Below are positions 29,712 to 39,390 of a stretch of DNA of 39,390 nucleotides, in pieces. Source of the stretch: Patescibacteria group bacterium (GTDB lineage: Bacteria; Patescibacteriota; Microgenomatia; UBA1406; GWC2-37-13). Both the position numbers and the translations under genes were made by a program. The notes under the pieces were generated by a model. The model saw nothing but the letters and a program-made list of their open reading frames with translations. It was not told the origin of the DNA and searched no databases. Position 1 is the stretch's first letter. Each line of letters starts with the position of its first letter. The stretch is from contig JAOAFI010000024.1 in assembly GCA_026416375.1 (NCBI GenBank), positions 1-39,390 on the forward strand, given 5' to 3'.

Positions 29712-30755
29712 TTAAAGATAAATATACTGACAATAATCAAAATCTATCTTTTCAACAGAACTAGCAATAGTTTGATAATTATTAATTATTGGAAAAATAA
29801 TTTTTTTATTGTTTTCATCTAATTCAGAAAAAATATCATCAAGCAAAATCAAAGGTTTTATTTTTTTATTTTTTTCAATATATTTTATTTCATTTATTTT
29901 AAGCCAAAAAATAGCTAATCTTTGTTCACTTCTTGAGCCAAATTTATGAATATTTTTATCTTGATTATTTTTATGATCTAATAAATAAATTTCAAAATCG
30001 TCTCTTTGAGGTCCAACAATTGTTTTTTTATATTTAATACTTTCTTCAAAACTATTTTTTAATCTTTCTCTATTTATTTCATTTTTTAAATATTTTATTG
30101 AAAAAAATTTAAAGTCAATTTTCTGATTTAAATTTAAAAAATTTATATACTCTTCTCTTTTTTGTGTTAGATAATTACCATTTTTTATCAAATAATCATC
30201 CCAAAAATTAAGCTCATTATTTAAATCAATAAAATTTGATTTTAGTTCTAAAATTTTATTTCTTTTTCTTAATGCTTGTTCATAATTAATTAATTTTTTC
30301 TTATATTCTGAATCAAGAAAACTAATTATTTTATCAAAATATCTTCTTCTTTTTTCAGGAGAACCAATAATAATTTCAAGTTGTTCTGGAGAAAATAAAA
30401 CTGTATTGGTTTGTTCTTGTTGATATAAAAAATGTTTTTTTTCGCTTTTTTCAATATAAAATTTTTTTGTCAACTTTTTTGTTTTTTCTAATTTTAAAAA
30501 AATAGAAAATGATAAAAAATCACTATTTATTAAAAAATCGCCGAAAACCTTTGATTCTTTTTCATAAAAATTTATCAATTCTTCTTCCTTCTCTTCTCTA
30601 AAACCAATTCCATTAATTAAAAAATGAATTGATTCTAAAATATTTGTTTTTCCAAGAGAATTTTTGCCAATAATCAAATTTATATTCTTATCAAAGATTA
30701 ATTCTTTTTCTTTAAAATTTCGAAAATTAATTAGCTTTATTCTTTTTAAAAACAT
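29712..30755 (-). CDS. recF: DNA replication/repair protein RecF
   Basis: LINFRNFKEKELIFDKNINLIIGKNSLGKTNILESIHFL, GPQRDDFEIYL and ILLDDIFSELDENN. Confidence 0.92.
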   Translation of the reverse strand: MFLKRIKLINFRNFKEKELIFDKNINLIIGKNSLGKTNILESIHFLINGIGFREEKEEELINFYEKESKVFGDFLINSDFLSFSIFLKLEKTKKLTKKFYIEKSEKKHFLYQQEQTNTVLFSPEQLEIIIGSPEKRRRYFDKIISFLDSEYKKKLINYEQALRKRNKILELKSNFIDLNNELNFWDDYLIKNGNYLTQKREEYINFLNLNQKIDFKFFSIKYLKNEINRERLKNSFEESIKYKKTIVGPQRDDFEIYLLDHKNNQDKNIHKFGSRSEQRLAIFWLKINEIKYIEKNKKIKPLILLDDIFSELDENNKKIIFPIINNYQTIASSVEKIDFDYCQYIYL

Positions 30756-30779: not shown

Positions 30780-32111
30780 TTATTTTTTCTTTAGGACAAA
30801 TTTTGTCTCAATAAATGAGGGCAACATTATTTTTCTTTTTAAAATTAATGCTTTATCTTTAAATTCAAAAAAAATTTTTTCCCAATATTTTTTATAAAAA
30901 AAAGAAACATCAGAAAAATCTTTTTTATGAAATATTTTATACCAAATATTTTCTTTAGTAAAAATTTTATGAACTATATATTTTTTTGAAACTCTAATGC
31001 TTTCTTTTATTGTTTTTTGAATTTTTTCATAATCCATTTTTTCTAAAAGATCATGACTATAAACTAAATCAAATTGATTATTTTTAAAAGGAAGATTGGT
31101 AGCATCAGCTAAAATAATATACGGTTTAATATTTTCTTTAGCTAAATTATAAGCAGTTTTTGAAAAATCAATTCCTTTAGCATCAACACCAAAAAATCTT
31201 AAATATTTTATCGTCGTTCCAAGACCACAACCTAACTCAAGAGCTGTTTTTGGATTTAAAGTAATTTTATAAATAAATGCTCGATAAAAACTAACCAAAT
31301 TATGAAATATTTCTCCAAAAAAAGAATCAACTTTACTTATTTTATGACCACCTTTTTTACCCATATAATAATCTCTATCATAATAGCTTGAATCAATTCT
31401 AAAAGGAGTAATCACTGTTCCTCTGAAAGTTTTTCCTTCAATTATTTTTTCTAAATTATTAAAATCATGACCTGAAGCAACAATTACTGTCAAGCCTAAT
31501 TTTTTTGCTAAAGGAGTTGCTACTGGATCAAAAGGAGCATTTAAACCAGGAGTCCATTTATTTCCAATAATTTTTTCTACTTCTTCCCAAGTTATTTTTT
31601 CAATAATTTTAGCATTTTTAAATTTTTTTGGATCTTTATCATATATTCCATCAACATTTGAAAGATTAATAATTAAATTAGCTTTATAATCACGAGCTAA
31701 AATTACCGCATCATAATCAGTAGACCATCCAGGTTTCCAGCCAGCCCCAATAGCAATTGGCTCTTTCCAATAAAAAATTTTTTTATCATAATTTGTAATA
31801 ATTCTTGGATGTGAAACATCTTGAAAAATTGTTCGCAATAAATGAGCATTAAAACGAGTAGCATGAATACCAAGCCAATCCAAATCTTCATTATTAATGT
31901 TTCCAATTACTTGTTTTCCTGCATCTTGATAATGACGAGCAATTTTTCCGCCACCTGATATAAGCATAAATCTTTTTCCTTTTAAAATTTGAGATCTAAT
32001 AAAATAATTTAATTGTGAAAGAAATTTTGTATCAACTCCTCCATTTGGAACAATTAAACTTCCTCCAACAGATATAATAATTGGCGGTTCTTTTTTATCA
32101 AAAAAAAACAT
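30780..32111 (-). CDS. Fusion of UMP kinase-like amino acid kinase domain (N-terminal) and class I SAM-dependent methyltransferase (C-terminal)
   Basis: N-terminal half: IISVGGSLIVPNGGVD, LISGGGKIARHYQDAG, LDWLGIHATRFNAHLL, STDYDAVILARDYKANLIINLSNVDGIYDKDP. C-terminal half: TALELGCGLGTTIKYLRFFGVDAKGIDFSKTAYNLAKENI...DATNLPFKNNQFDLVYSHDLLE. One continuous ORF. Confidence 0.85.
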   Translation of the reverse strand: MFFFDKKEPPIIISVGGSLIVPNGGVDTKFLSQLNYFIRSQILKGKRFMLISGGGKIARHYQDAGKQVIGNINNEDLDWLGIHATRFNAHLLRTIFQDVSHPRIITNYDKKIFYWKEPIAIGAGWKPGWSTDYDAVILARDYKANLIINLSNVDGIYDKDPKKFKNAKIIEKITWEEVEKIIGNKWTPGLNAPFDPVATPLAKKLGLTVIVASGHDFNNLEKIIEGKTFRGTVITPFRIDSSYYDRDYYMGKKGGHKISKVDSFFGEIFHNLVSFYRAFIYKITLNPKTALELGCGLGTTIKYLRFFGVDAKGIDFSKTAYNLAKENIKPYIILADATNLPFKNNQFDLVYSHDLLEKMDYEKIQKTIKESIRVSKKYIVHKIFTKENIWYKIFHKKDFSDVSFFYKKYWEKIFFEFKDKALILKRKIMLPSFIETKFVLKKK

Positions 32112-32153: not shown

Positions 32154-32489
32154 TCAAATTATTCCTCCTTGAAGTCCAAAAATAAAAGAAATAAGTCTAA
32201 CTAAAAAATAAGAAAAAATTAATATTCCAAAACCAATAAGACCAGCGGTAATTTTTGCTTGAGCGCTTTTTATTTTATCTTGATTGCCTTGAGATAAAAT
32301 ATAATCATATCCGCCCCAAATCAAAATAAAAAGAAGAATTATTCCAGCTAAAGGCATCATAAATTGTAAAATTCTTCCTATAATATGACTAAGTTTTATC
32401 TCAGAAGAATCAACTCCAGGAATTCTTAAAGGTCCTTCAATTGTCTGTCCATTAAGATTAACTGCTTGAGCTAATATTTGTTTTATCAT
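32154..32489 (-). CDS. Small two-TM protein, VirB2/TrbC-like pilin candidate
   Basis: Two hydrophobic helices around a polar loop YILSQGNQDKIKSAQAKITAGLIG. Overlaps the 3' end of the Hsp100 gene. Confidence 0.6.
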   Translation of the reverse strand: MIKQILAQAVNLNGQTIEGPLRIPGVDSSEIKLSHIIGRILQFMMPLAGIILLFILIWGGYDYILSQGNQDKIKSAQAKITAGLIGFGILIFSYFLVRLISFIFGLQGGII

Positions 32490-35397
32490 TGTTTTTGTCT
32501 AAATAATTTTTAACATCTTTTATTTCTTCTTTTTCTTTTGAATTTATTGATTCATTAATTTTTATTTTGATTTTGTTTTTAGCGCATTTTGGACAAATAA
32601 TCGTTGTATTAACAATAATTTCTTGTTCAAAAACAAAACCACAATTTAAGCATAAATATTTTTTAATATTTTTTGGAACAAAATTTGCTTTCTCAATATC
32701 AAAAAAAAGTTCATTATCTTTAATTTTTACTTTTATAATATCTCCTTTTTTTACTTTTCCTTCAATAATTAAATTAGAAATTGGATTTTCAATATATTTT
32801 TGAATTGCTCGTTTTAGAGGACGAGCTCCATAAATTGGATCAAAACCTACCTGAGCTAAATCATCAATCACTTCATCACTATAACAAAAACCAATTTCTT
32901 GATCTTCAAGCAACTTTTCTACGCCTTTAAGTTGAAGTTTAATAATTTTTGATATATCTTTAAATTTTAAAGGTTCAAAAATTATAATCTCATCAAAACG
33001 ATTAACTAATTCAGGTCTAAAAAACTTTAAAAGTTCAATCATTACTTTTTCTTTTATTTTTTCAAAATCATTATTTTTTTCATTATTAGTTTTATTTTTT
33101 TCTTTATTTTGATCTTTATCTGTTTCTCTTTTAAGAATTTCTTGTTGAATCAAATTTGAAGCAATGTTTGAAGTACAAATAACAACTGTATTTTTAAAGG
33201 AAATAGTTCTTCCTTTGTTATCAGTTAATCTACCATCATCTAGTATTTGAAGCAAAATATTAAAAATATCAGGATGAGCTTTTTCAATTTCATCAAAAAG
33301 AACAACACTATATGGTTTTCTTCTAACAGCCTCAGTTAATTTACCGCCTTCTTCATAGCCAACATATCCAGGAGGAGCACCAAGCAATTTTGCCACTTCA
33401 TGGCGCTCCATATACTCTGTCATATCAAACCTAATCATTGCCTCCTCGCTTCCAAACAAAACATCAGCTAAAGTTTTAGCTAATTCCGTTTTTCCAACAC
33501 CAGTTGGACCTAAAAAAACAAAACTTCCAATAGGCCGAGAGGCTGATTTTAAACCAGCTCTTCCACGCCTGACAGCTTGAGAAACTGAGGCTACTGCTTT
33601 TTCCTGATTAATTAATCTTTGATGAATAATCTCTTCAAGATGAGCTAAACGCTCAATTTCAGATGAAGTAATTTTAGAAACAGGAATTCCAGTCCAACGA
33701 GAAATAATATCGCGGATAATATCAACAGTAACACTTGTTGTTGTTTGGCCTTTTTTAAGATTATATTCCTCTTGTTTTTCTTTTAATTGAGATTGAATAT
33801 CATCTATTTTTGAATTTAAAATTCTTACTTTTATCTGATCCCCTTTTTTTTCAGCTTCAATTTTTTCTTGAGACAACTCTTTTATTCTTGTTTCAAGAGA
33901 TCTTATTTCTTCAGGCAAAGAAATTAAAGGTAGTCTAACAGCTGAAGCTGCCTCATCAATTAAATCAACTGCTTTATCAGGCAAAAATCTATCTCCAATA
34001 TATCTTTTAGATAATTTTACCGCTATTTCAATTGCCTCAAGCGGTATTTTTACTTTATGAAAAGCTTCATATTTATCTTTTATTGCCTGAAGCATTTTAA
34101 TTGTCTGTTCTTCTGTTGGCTCAGGAACCAACACCGGCTGAAAACGCCGCTCTAATGCTGGATCTTTTTCAATATACTTTCTATATTCAGTCAAAGTTGT
34201 TGCGCCAATTATCTGAACTTCTCCCCGGGCCAGAGCTGGCTTTAAAAAATTTGAAGCATCAAGAGATCCTTCTCCGCTTGATCCAGCACCAACAATATTG
34301 TGAATTTCATCAATAAAAAGAATTATCTGTCCATTTGAAGCTTTAATCTGTTCAAGCAAGTCTTTCATTCTTTCTTCAAATTCTCCTCTGTGGGAAGCTC
34401 CAGCTAAAATACTCATTAAATCAAGCTGTAGAATCTTTTTATTTAAAAGAGGCTCCGGAACTTCACGGGAAACAATTTTTTGAGCCAACCCCTCAACAAT
34501 TGCTGTTTTTCCAACTCCAGCCTCGCCGACCAATGACGGATTATTTTTGCTTCGGCGAGACAAAATATGAATTACTCTCTCAATTACTGAAGATCTTTCA
34601 ACTACCGGATCAAGAAGTCCTTGAGAAGCTTTGGCAGTTAAATCAATAGTAAATTCCTCCAAAACTTTTTTCTTTTTCTGGGCTTTTATTTCTTCTTCGC
34701 TCATTAATCCTTCTTTTTTGCCAGTAATTTTTTTATTTAAATCTTCTTTTTTTAATCCTAATTTAACTAATATTCTGGCGCCAACTCCTTCTCCTTCCTC
34801 ATACAAAGAAACTAAAAGATGTTCAGGAGCAATAAATTCAAAACCAAGTTTTCTAGCAATAATAAGAGAGTCGTTTATTATTTTTTTTATCCTTGGAGAA
34901 ATCTGAGGAAGTTTATCAGCTGTTCCTTTTTTATAAATTTTATTTAACTCTTCTTGAATTAATTGAGGAGAGGTTTTTAATTCTGTTAAAAGATTATAAA
35001 TCTCTGAGTCAGTAGTTAAACCGTACAAAAGATGTTCGCTGTCAAGATAATCACTTTTTAATTCTTTAGCTTTACTTTGAGCCATCATAATTACTCTATT
35101 GGACCTTGAGGTTAAATGAGTCATTAGATCAAGATTGGCTGTTTGAGGCTGATTTTCTTGGATTTTTTTTTCAGTCGGTTTTTTTATATTATTTTGTTCT
35201 GTTTGATTATTAATTTTTTGATTAATTTGATTGCCAGCTAAATTATTTTGAACTTGATTATTATTAAAATTTTGATTGTTAGTATTTAATTGATTAGGGA
35301 TATTAGAATTAGTGTTTGAACCATTAGGATTGCTATGATTGTTTGGATTTAAATTTGCATTTTGTTGATTATTTAAAAAATCAAAAAAGTTTGCCAT
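32458..35397 (-). CDS. ClpC/ClpB-like Hsp100 AAA+ unfoldase with N/Q-rich N-terminus and C-terminal zinc ribbon
   Basis: Clp N-domain (SRSNRVIMMAQSKAKELKSDYLDSEHLLYGL), Walker A motifs GEAGVGKTA and GPTGVGKTE, GAPPGYVGYEEGGKLTEAVRRKPYSVVLFDEIEKAHPD. C-terminal CLNCG...CPKC. Confidence 0.93.
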   Translation of the reverse strand: MANFFDFLNNQQNANLNPNNHSNPNGSNTNSNIPNQLNTNNQNFNNNQVQNNLAGNQINQKINNQTEQNNIKKPTEKKIQENQPQTANLDLMTHLTSRSNRVIMMAQSKAKELKSDYLDSEHLLYGLTTDSEIYNLLTELKTSPQLIQEELNKIYKKGTADKLPQISPRIKKIINDSLIIARKLGFEFIAPEHLLVSLYEEGEGVGARILVKLGLKKEDLNKKITGKKEGLMSEEEIKAQKKKKVLEEFTIDLTAKASQGLLDPVVERSSVIERVIHILSRRSKNNPSLVGEAGVGKTAIVEGLAQKIVSREVPEPLLNKKILQLDLMSILAGASHRGEFEERMKDLLEQIKASNGQIILFIDEIHNIVGAGSSGEGSLDASNFLKPALARGEVQIIGATTLTEYRKYIEKDPALERRFQPVLVPEPTEEQTIKMLQAIKDKYEAFHKVKIPLEAIEIAVKLSKRYIGDRFLPDKAVDLIDEAASAVRLPLISLPEEIRSLETRIKELSQEKIEAEKKGDQIKVRILNSKIDDIQSQLKEKQEEYNLKKGQTTTSVTVDIIRDIISRWTGIPVSKITSSEIERLAHLEEIIHQRLINQEKAVASVSQAVRRGRAGLKSASRPIGSFVFLGPTGVGKTELAKTLADVLFGSEEAMIRFDMTEYMERHEVAKLLGAPPGYVGYEEGGKLTEAVRRKPYSVVLFDEIEKAHPDIFNILLQILDDGRLTDNKGRTISFKNTVVICTSNIASNLIQQEILKRETDKDQNKEKNKTNNEKNNDFEKIKEKVMIELLKFFRPELVNRFDEIIIFEPLKFKDISKIIKLQLKGVEKLLEDQEIGFCYSDEVIDDLAQVGFDPIYGARPLKRAIQKYIENPISNLIIEGKVKKGDIIKVKIKDNELFFDIEKANFVPKNIKKYLCLNCGFVFEQEIIVNTTIICPKCAKNKIKIKINESINSKEKEEIKDVKNYLDKNNDKTNISSSS

Positions 35398-36186: not shown

Positions 36187-36223
36187 TTTTTAATTAAATA
36201 TTAAATAAATGTATAATAAAATT

Positions 36224-36658
36224 ATGGATAAAAAAATTTTAGTTTTTATTGGAATTTTTTTTGTTTTTATTATTTTTATTTTGTTTTTAATTGCTTCAAA
36301 TAAACCAAAAGTAAAAAATGATTCAAATCAGACTCAAACCATTGTCTCTCCAATACAAAAAATTCAAATTAAAGATTCTGAAAAACCAACTAATCCGCCA
36401 ATCATTTCTCCAGCTGAATTTACCGGAGTTAAAGAAGAAGAACTTCCGCCAAAAATAAAAGATTATAGCGATCAAAAACTTGATCTTCTAAAAAAATTGC
36501 CTTTAAAAATGAGTTATTTTATTATTGATTTTGATTATGTTGAGGATAAATTCACTGTTTCTTATCTTGAACCAAAATCTTCCTCCAAAAACCTTTTCTC
36601 TTCATGGCTTTTCCAAAACTATCCAGCATTAAAAATTAGTGATTTTATAGAAAAATAA
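36224..36658 (+). CDS. Small membrane-anchored hypothetical protein
   Basis: MDKKILVFIGIFFVFIIFILFLIA TM anchor. The ORF-track start at 36209 contains a TATAAT 6 nt before the ATG at 36224. Confidence 0.65.
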   Translation: MDKKILVFIGIFFVFIIFILFLIASNKPKVKNDSNQTQTIVSPIQKIQIKDSEKPTNPPIISPAEFTGVKEEELPPKIKDYSDQKLDLLKKLPLKMSYFIIDFDYVEDKFTVSYLEPKSSSKNLFSSWLFQNYPALKISDFIEK

Positions 36659-36699
36659 TCATTTGAAAACAAAACTATTTTTGTTTTAAAATCAATAAT

Positions 36700-38553
36700 A
36701 TGTTGTCTTTTTATATCCTTGGAGCAAAAAAAATATTTTCTATTTTAAAAAAGATATTTTTTATTTTTACTGTTTATTTTGTTATTATTTTTTTATTTAT
36801 AAACTTCACTTCAAATAATTCAATTAAAACTGAAAGAAATTTTGAAAAAAAAATAAATAAATATGATGATAAAATATTAAAAGATGAAAAATTAACAAAT
36901 AATCCTTATGGTAAAATCTATATTCAAATTTATAAAGGATCAAATTGTTTTCTTTTTGGTCAATTATGTGATAATAATAATTTAGATGAACAAAATTATA
37001 AAAATAGCTTTTTTGGAAAATTTAATACTCTTTTTGAATCTTTATACTTAAATCAACCTGCTTCTTTTTCTTTTTGGGCCTCAAATTCATTAAATAAAGC
37101 TGGTTTTATTCCAAATGTTTTTGCTTTAGATAATTCTAGACAAGCTACAACTGGAATAGGTTTTCAATCTTTAAAATCTTTTTATATCTTATGGGAAAAT
37201 TTTAGAAATTTAAGTTTTCTTATTATTACTCTAGTTTTAGTAACAATCGGTTTTATGATTATGTTTCGAACAAAAATCAATCCACAAACAGTTATTTCTA
37301 TTGAAAATGCTCTGCCAAAAATTATAATCTCAATGATTCTTATTACTTTTTCTTATCCAATAGCTGGATTAATGATTGATTTAATGTATGTATCTTTGCC
37401 AATTGTTGCTGGATTATTTAAAAATATTCTTTATATGCCTCCTGATGATTTAGCTAAAAGCATAGATCTTGCTCCAATAATTCCTTCAAAAACACCTGCT
37501 GATATTGTTTTAAAAAATATTATTTTTGAATTAATAAATAATGCAATAAAATTAATGAATCCTTTTGGTAATAGATCTATTTTAGATTTAACTTTTGATC
37601 AATTTATAAATGATAATGCTTTTGCTATTGTTTTTGATTGGCTTAATTTTAATCTTTATATAAAAGCAATAAACGATATAATATCAGGAGCTTTTTTAAG
37701 TCAAAATATTATTTTTCAAGAATCTTTTAAAATAATTATAAGTGTTATTGGTTTATTTCTAATAAGCGCATTAATAAACCCAGTTGGAGAATATTTAAGT
37801 AGTATATTAGGAAATCTTGGAGAAGGCGCTGGAATAGGCATACCTAGATTAATTTTTTTTGGTTTTGTAACTATGATTCTTGTAAATTTTGGCATTATAT
37901 TGATAGCTTTCTTAGGATTGTTTTTTTTAGCTTTTAGAATTTTTTTCTTTCTTCTATCTTGTTTTTTTAATCTAATAATTTACATAATCTTAGCGCCTTT
38001 ACTTCTTTTACTTGAAGCAATTCCTGGTAAAAATTCTTTTTCTTCTTGGATTAAAAATATTGCTGGTAACTTAATTGTTTTTCCTGTTTTTCTTTTTATT
38101 ATTCTTCTACAAAAATCTTTTTATGTATTTTTAAGTCAAGATTCTTCTTTTATTTCTTTACCTGGATTAAATTTCTATCTTTTTGGAGTAAAATTTGAAC
38201 CAATAAACATTCAAACAAGCATTCCATTCTTTATTTCTTTAATAAATATATATATTATTCTTATGATTCCTGATTTATTAAAAACAGCTAAAGCTTTAGT
38301 TATAGGAAAAGAAGGAATATCTATTCCAACAAATGCTGGAATTATGTTAGGAGGAATTGGAGCTGCAACAGGTAGTATAATGGGTTTTGCTAATCAATTT
38401 TATTATTTAAAAACTGGATATGAAGCTTTGCTTCAAAAAAAATCTATTCCAGCTAGAGAAACTGGTCAACAAGAACCTGAAAAAGAAAAAAATATATTTA
38501 GAAATACTTTTAATGAAGGAATTAAGTGGGTTAGTAAAAAATTTGGTTTTTAA
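36700..38553 (+). CDS. Polytopic VirB6/TrbL-like membrane protein
   Basis: Multiple TM segments and FFLLSCFFNLIIYIILAPLLLLLEAIPGKNSFSSWIKNIAGNLIVFPVFLFI. Located beside a VirB2/TrbC-like gene. Confidence 0.55.
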   Translation: MLSFYILGAKKIFSILKKIFFIFTVYFVIIFLFINFTSNNSIKTERNFEKKINKYDDKILKDEKLTNNPYGKIYIQIYKGSNCFLFGQLCDNNNLDEQNYKNSFFGKFNTLFESLYLNQPASFSFWASNSLNKAGFIPNVFALDNSRQATTGIGFQSLKSFYILWENFRNLSFLIITLVLVTIGFMIMFRTKINPQTVISIENALPKIIISMILITFSYPIAGLMIDLMYVSLPIVAGLFKNILYMPPDDLAKSIDLAPIIPSKTPADIVLKNIIFELINNAIKLMNPFGNRSILDLTFDQFINDNAFAIVFDWLNFNLYIKAINDIISGAFLSQNIIFQESFKIIISVIGLFLISALINPVGEYLSSILGNLGEGAGIGIPRLIFFGFVTMILVNFGIILIAFLGLFFLAFRIFFFLLSCFFNLIIYIILAPLLLLLEAIPGKNSFSSWIKNIAGNLIVFPVFLFIILLQKSFYVFLSQDSSFISLPGLNFYLFGVKFEPINIQTSIPFFISLINIYIILMIPDLLKTAKALVIGKEGISIPTNAGIMLGGIGAATGSIMGFANQFYYLKTGYEALLQKKSIPARETGQQEPEKEKNIFRNTFNEGIKWVSKKFGF

Positions 38554-38558
38554 TTTTT

Positions 38559-39311
38559 TTATCTAATAAATCCTGGTAATTTTAAAACATCAACTCCAAT
38601 AAATCTTAATATAAATACTGAAAAAATTATAAAAACTAATCCTAATATGCAAGAAGTTAAAAGCTCTTGTGCTTTTTTTAGTTTTTCTTGATTGCCTTGA
38701 GAAGATTGAATTATAAAAGAAGAATAAATAATACAAAAAAAAGCTATTATACCAGCAAGACCAATAAGTCTAACAAGCAAAAAATTACTTATAAAAACTG
38801 ATAAATCAAATGGAATACAACCAAAACCACTATAATAACTATTATTTTCTATACAATTTAAACATTTATTTAATTGAGAATTATTATTTTTAAAATAAAT
38901 TTCACATAATGATTTATATTTTTTATCTGTTATATTAACAATAGTATTATCACTAATACAAATACAATTGCCATTTTCATAACTTTCTTCTCCTACCTTA
39001 CATCTATCTTTTAAAAAATTAGGCACAATAGGACTTTTTTCTATTAAAAAAGATTTAAAATTTTTCATAAAAGGTTCTATAAGAATATCTAAACCAAAAC
39101 CAATATGAGTTTGATCTGGTTGAATTGTTTCTTCAAAAGAATCACAACATTTATTATAAGAAGTATTAGCAAAACCACACTTAAAAAAATACTCATAATT
39201 ATTATTTATTAAAGTAGGTGATAAATCAGGGGTTATTGTTTGAGCAAAAATATAATTAAATTTAAAAATAAATAAAAAAATAAATAAAAAAATAGCAAAA
39301 ATTTTTTTCAT
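38559..39311 (-). CDS. Secreted Cys-rich protein with C-terminal VirB2/TrbC-like two-TM module
   Basis: Signal peptide MKKIFAIFLFIFLFIFKFNYIFA, many Cys residues, C-terminal SSFIIQSSQGNQEKLKKAQELLTSCILGLVFIIFSVFILRFIG. The listed start at 39329 lies upstream of a TATAAT box; ATG at 39311 is preferred. Confidence 0.6.
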   Translation of the reverse strand: MKKIFAIFLFIFLFIFKFNYIFAQTITPDLSPTLINNNYEYFFKCGFANTSYNKCCDSFEETIQPDQTHIGFGLDILIEPFMKNFKSFLIEKSPIVPNFLKDRCKVGEESYENGNCICISDNTIVNITDKKYKSLCEIYFKNNNSQLNKCLNCIENNSYYSGFGCIPFDLSVFISNFLLVRLIGLAGIIAFFCIIYSSFIIQSSQGNQEKLKKAQELLTSCILGLVFIIFSVFILRFIGVDVLKLPGFIR

Positions 39312-39328
39312 AAGATTAATTATAAACA

Positions 39329-39390
39329 TTATTTTTTACCTTTTCCAATTTCGAAATCATCCTTAGCTGATTTAAAAGCCAATATTAAAG
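39329..39390 (-). CDS. 3' end of an unidentified minus-strand CDS, truncated by the window
   Basis: The minus strand reads ...LILAFKSAKDDFEIGKGKK-stop, open to the window edge. Confidence 0.4.
   Translation of the reverse strand, partial: LILAFKSAKDDFEIGKGKK

Follow-up and report, generated by a model that had tools for sequence, protein, structure and literature searches.

A conserved fusion of an archaeal-type UMP kinase and a class I methyltransferase in Microgenomatia

The fused gene and its occurrence

The window, as the whole analysed stretch of 39,390 nucleotides from a Patescibacteria draft genome is called here, carries on its minus strand a gene whose product joins a UMP kinase to a class I methyltransferase. 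The gene, its domains and its neighbours are as follows:

30780..32111, minus strand: pyrH-methyltransferase fusion gene, 443 codons with an ATG start; assigned by Pfam and NCBIfam, with the same fusion in relatives
31404..32081, minus strand: archaeal-type UMP kinase domain (residues 11-236); TIGR02076 at 190 bits, about 31% identity to PDB entries 2bmu/2ji5, UMP/ATP-site residues G53-G55, R59, D78, T131, Y157 and D160 kept
30783..31391, minus strand: class I SAM methyltransferase domain (residues 241-443); Methyltransf_11 at E 6.7e-15, model pLDDT 84.7, Foldseek matches to class I methyltransferases
31218..31244, minus strand: methyltransferase motif I ALELGCGLG, the SAM-binding loop (residues 290-298), from the alignment of fused sequences
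30969..30971, minus strand: codon of H381, a candidate functional residue that all fused methyltransferase domains share without exception and that their nearest free-standing relatives lack
29712..30755, minus strand: recF (TIGR00611, 241 bits), the next gene downstream and a conserved neighbour with or without the methyltransferase domain
32154..32489, minus strand: T4SS-pilin-like gene (PF18895, 32.9 bits), upstream, a conserved neighbour in the window's order
32458..35397, minus strand: gene further upstream, assigned by translation and synteny, whose product is taken from its sequence to be a ClpC-type AAA+ ATPase

Within the window's order the genes run clpC, T4SS-pilin-like gene, pyrH-methyltransferase and recF. 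Wherever checked, recF lies behind the fusion. Beyond recF in the window come rpsL, rpsG and EF-G. Elsewhere in the window, a second minus-strand protein (38559-39329) matches T4SS_pilin below the cut-off, and two proteins of 149 and 617 aa, encoded within 36209-38553, have no match in Pfam or NCBIfam.

The fused frame is free of internal stops, and the description in the earlier note of one uninterrupted 443-codon frame holding both enzymes is borne out by the reading frame, Pfam and NCBIfam. All motifs quoted there were located in the translation: GGSL (residues 16-19), GGGK (53-56), LGIHATRFNAHLL and NVDGIYDKDP in the kinase half, and ALELGCGLG (290-298) and NQFDLVYSHDLL (345-356) in the methyltransferase half. 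Two Pfam families match above their curated cut-offs, AA_kinase over residues 11-213 (E 1e-25) and Methyltransf_11 over residues 291-377 (E 6.7e-15), and the split that had been placed near residue 237 is correct to within a few residues, the kinase spanning 11-236 and the methyltransferase 241-443. The chance that the fusion is an assembly or frameshift artefact, or a chance joining of two genes in a single genome, is negligible: nothing in the window points to it, the sole irregularities being a frame break in one relative (G057) and a deletion in another (G031), and the full-length fused frame is open in 37 further genomes. Since dozens of genomes, each assembled independently, carry the fused frame uninterrupted, this reading was rejected; the fusion is a real, conserved single polypeptide.

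These 37 genomes all belong to the class Microgenomatia, 21 coming from a search of relatives and 16 from a search of the class, so that 38 full-length fused sequences are known with the window included; one additional genome (G031) carries the fusion with an internal deletion and is among the 22 further genomes in which the search of relatives found it. The fusion occurs in six family-level groups (f1, f2, f3, f12, f21 and f42) and is present in broken form in f24. Within a class draw of 281 genomes, 108 carry an archaeal-type pyrH and 26 the full fused frame, plus the broken one in G057, while a phylum draw of 380 genomes, with the methyltransferase profile at E 1e-30, gave 2 pyrH-fused proteins and 4 relatives without pyrH. 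When 85,462 species genomes were scanned and the best 80 loci retained, the fused matches among these came only from genomes titled Roizmanbacteria, Microgenomates or simply Patescibacteria, and the remaining ones, from other Patescibacteria, DPANN archaea and Borrelia, cover the kinase part only. As a separate observation, G057 (L132:3679-5666) holds a divergent stand-alone pyrH in tandem with a pyrH-methyltransferase fusion whose frame breaks at about residue 84 or further on.

The two halves of the protein

The kinase half is matched over residues 11-234 by the NCBIfam family pyrH_arch (TIGR02076) at 190.2 bits against a cut-off of 158.05 (E 3.7e-56), and the bacterial PyrH model gives just 64 bits against 244, which agrees with the earlier reading of the N-terminal motifs as closer to archaeal-type UMP kinases. 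In a PDB sequence search the top matches are UMP kinases from Pyrococcus furiosus, Sulfolobus solfataricus and Archaeoglobus fulgidus, and a Foldseek search with an AlphaFold model (pLDDT 83, pTM 0.77) returned the Sulfolobus and Pyrococcus enzymes 2j4j, 2bmu and 2brx at the top (TMt 0.85-0.91). In solved UMP kinases the substrate is contacted by Arg49, Tyr146 and Asp149 of P. furiosus and by Asp69 and Thr137 of T. thermophilus (PMC12404492). R59, Y157 and D160 of the window kinase align with the former set and D78 and T131 with the latter, so that all five substrate-site residues are present; they vary little or not at all among fused relatives, R59, D78, T131 and D160 being invariant in 22 fused sequences. 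By analogy with its archaeal relatives, the kinase half probably forms a hexamer.

Family searches of the window's 93% complete genome, which bear on whether the cell also has a stand-alone pyrH, found no second UMP kinase and no cytidylate kinase over cut-off. The only other AA_kinase protein was considered as a second pyrH and rejected, since it belongs to the isopentenyl phosphate kinases. As the draft yielded no further UMP kinase, this half of the fusion is probably the sole enzyme of the cell for ATP + UMP to UDP, a function assigned here from family, fold and retained site residues, and is therefore probably a housekeeping one. The isopentenyl phosphate kinase (L002:1489-2292, on contig C48 of the window's genome) is itself of archaeal type (NF040647, 196.7 bits against a cut-off of 120), hinting at an unusual isoprenoid route in this Patescibacteria genome.

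The methyltransferase half exceeds the Pfam gathering scores of both PF08241 (55.9 against 21.2 bits) and PF13649 (49.8 against 27). The window has an intact motif I (ELGCGLG) and, after beta2, an intact acidic residue (in GIDFS); among 37 fused sequences, a count that leaves out G031, motif I (D/E-x-G-x-G-x-G) is full in 33, the deviating ones being L004, L008, L010 and L127, and every one has an acidic residue where beta2 ends. Y248, R373, H381, T385, S400 and W410 are invariant in the fused sequences. The histidines of the EH and DxSH motifs are kept in most other genera and mostly missing in the window's genus, where 3 of the 12 fused sequences (L004, L008 and L010) also deviate in motif I; given the loss of these histidines, the specificity or activity of the methyltransferase may have drifted in this genus. 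In G031 (L029:1492-2697) the fused protein is without about 36 residues around motif I and the frame stays open, which may reflect decay, a non-catalytic variant or an assembly error.

Several routes to a substrate were tried. Foldseek with the model of this half (pLDDT 84.7) returned generic class I methyltransferases at TM 0.5-0.7, which gave no substrate call. All 31 members compared match the pseudaminic-acid-associated methylase TIGR03587, far under its cut-off (L116 at 40.7 against 112 bits), and mycofactocin-glycan and quinone methyltransferases match weakly as well; with matches this weak and conflicting, a named subfamily from NCBIfam or PDB was rejected. The nearest non-fused relatives are of two types. 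One, a long branch in the methyltransferase tree, forms the C-terminal half of a protein in G108 (L169:3450-5480) that also contains a GT4 glycosyltransferase and whose gene adjoins an ABC-2 exporter, a second GT4 glycosyltransferase and an O-antigen ligase in a polysaccharide cluster. The other consists of small free Patescibacteria methyltransferases (in G039, G368, G393 and G407), and the contexts of close free relatives are tsaD/valS, ABC transporter/pgk and tyrS/FemAB.

Neither the bacterial (TIGR01034) nor the archaeal (PF01941) SAM synthetase was found in the window's 93% complete genome. Across the genus and among relatives metK is patchy, with many genomes showing none, and judged by eye the retention of the methyltransferase follows its presence in no clear pattern. 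In the window's genome a fragment of trmD, lying where a contig ends, implies that the cell uses SAM, which would then be imported or made by a synthetase encoded in the missing part of the draft. Given the loss of most EH and DxSH histidines and the missing synthetase, the activity of the methyltransferase in the window's genome is not certain.

Gain and loss of the methyltransferase

A stand-alone pyrH occupies the same slot, with recF directly behind, in G001, G007, G013, G015 (window's genus), G109 and G028, and the order pyrH-recF recurs in more distant members of the class. The methyltransferase is thus best seen as a C-terminal addition, since relatives with the same gene order have none, and the direction of change is taken to be a gain because the outgroups have a stand-alone pyrH followed by recF. 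None of the loci compared has a separate methyltransferase gene lodged between the two, such as an intermediate stage would show. On the kinase tree the methyltransferase label changes at least 5 times by gain or loss (bootstrap range 4-6), as against 26.7 times when labels are shuffled; the tree alone does not fix the direction, and an old gain with several later losses is the best fit. Pairwise distances of the kinase and the methyltransferase correlate (r 0.69, with 0 of 2000 permutations as high): the halves of the fusion are co-inherited.

Omega was estimated by the Nei-Gojobori count, for which only the closest pairs are informative, synonymous sites being near saturation in most pairs. 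In these pairs the kinase has values of 0.02-0.12 and the methyltransferase of 0.06-0.17; between the window and its nearest relative, L004, they are 0.12 and 0.17 respectively. Both halves are thus under purifying selection, and the methyltransferase, which changes about 1.4- to 3-fold faster than the kinase, is kept by selection in the window's lineage too, though less tightly.

Possible roles and comparison with known systems

It is suggested that the fusion is a two-domain housekeeping protein, a UMP kinase with an appended, mostly active glycan or small-molecule methyltransferase that would act on its own substrate with no coupling needed, and this reading has about an even chance of being correct. 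The N-terminal half would convert ATP and UMP to UDP, and a class I methyltransferase of glycan or small-molecule type would have been added behind pyrH and ahead of recF in an ancestor within the class and subsequently lost in some descendants. The appended domain most likely has a methylation substrate of its own, for which the best guess is a sugar, glycan or lipid-linked intermediate, and may simply be co-expressed with the kinase and displayed on it, which would make direct chemical coupling of the two reactions unnecessary. The earlier suggestion of a glycan-type substrate draws a little support from the nearest relatives of the methyltransferase, with the weak TIGR03587 matches as a further hint. 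Against it, the fusion's own neighbourhood (clpC, pilin-like gene and recF) contains no glycan genes, other close free relatives lie in mixed contexts, and the GT4-linked relative is a long branch. The further proposal, that the fusion couples UMP/UDP formation to methylation, is not supported: several close relatives without the methyltransferase keep pyrH in the same operon position, and the methyltransferase also evolves the faster of the two halves.

A form of that proposal in which substrate is channelled, the methyltransferase acting on UMP, on UDP or on a UDP-sugar derived from the UDP formed alongside, would suit both the stability of the fusion over several families, with its halves co-inherited, and the likeness of the methyltransferase to those acting on glycans and sugars. 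It is nonetheless distinctly improbable, given that the locus has no nucleotide-sugar genes, that the methyltransferase has been lost repeatedly and that its relatives exist without any kinase. It is also possible that the methyltransferase half no longer catalyses and instead senses SAM or SAH, regulating the UMP kinase and linking pyrimidine flux to one-carbon status. Its faster change, the departures within the window's genus (a deviant motif I in three of twelve fused sequences, and EH and DxSH histidines mostly missing), the open frame without the motif I region in G031 and the lack of metK in many of these genomes, the window's included, would all fit a sensor. However, most members retain both motif I and the acidic residue of beta2, the invariant Y248, H381, T385, S400 and W410 resemble a conserved active centre and not a bare binding fold, and close relatives have lost the domain altogether, which makes this reading rather improbable.

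Finally, the methyltransferase may modify a macromolecule (tRNA, rRNA or protein), with the kinase as a mere carrier. Its housekeeping neighbours (clpC and recF, then rpsL, rpsG and EF-G) and a class I fold common to RNA and protein methyltransferases would accord with this, but the best family and profile matches are mostly to small-molecule and glycan methyltransferases and no RNA-binding domain was found in the protein, so that this too is quite improbable. The broader idea that the sole UMP kinase passes UDP, or a sugar derived from it, on to the fused methyltransferase, or that the SAM level controls UMP phosphorylation, is unlikely; if true, it would tie pyrimidine metabolism directly to methyl metabolism, and we know of no such link from other organisms.

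Both domains are of known families and their combination is the new element. A search of open-licence papers found no description of a UMP kinase-methyltransferase fusion, and hence no already characterised bifunctional enzyme of this kind, though the architecture may have been catalogued earlier in domain-architecture databases. A single-copy nucleotide kinase with a conserved yet losable methyltransferase appendage is unusual, and it lets domain fusion in reduced genomes be probed as a matter of shared pathway versus co-expression alone: natural versions with the methyltransferase, without it and with the SAM loop missing occur within one order, and the invariant Y248, H381, T385, S400 and W410 offer concrete positions for mutants.

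Compared with the archaeal UMP kinases (TIGR02076; P. furiosus 2BMU and S. solfataricus 2J4J), the window protein shares fold, length and UMP/ATP site residues at about 31% identity to the P. furiosus enzyme, from which it differs in having S14 in place of Asp and W125 in place of Thr, and it bears an additional C-terminal methyltransferase domain. Other Patescibacteria, DPANN archaea and Borrelia also have an archaeal-type pyrH without that domain, as a stand-alone protein whose kinase domain is about 40-60% identical. The methyltransferase shares its Rossmann-type fold with the solved class I enzymes PH0226 (1VE3), phosphoethanolamine methyltransferase (3UJ6) and AtmM (6UV6), at an identity of just 15-21% or so from which a substrate is not transferable. 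Closer to it are the GT4-linked protein of G108, whose methyltransferase half fits the fused-methyltransferase profile at about E 1e-35 and shares the Y(N/D)R-x-Y(F/Y) start and the DxSHxS motif, and the four free Patescibacteria methyltransferases, which match the profile at E 1e-33 to 1e-38. Unlike the fusion, the former is joined to a glycosyltransferase within a polysaccharide cluster and the latter have no kinase and lie in mixed gene neighbourhoods; both are without H381, which, on the sequences compared, appears specific to the fused family.
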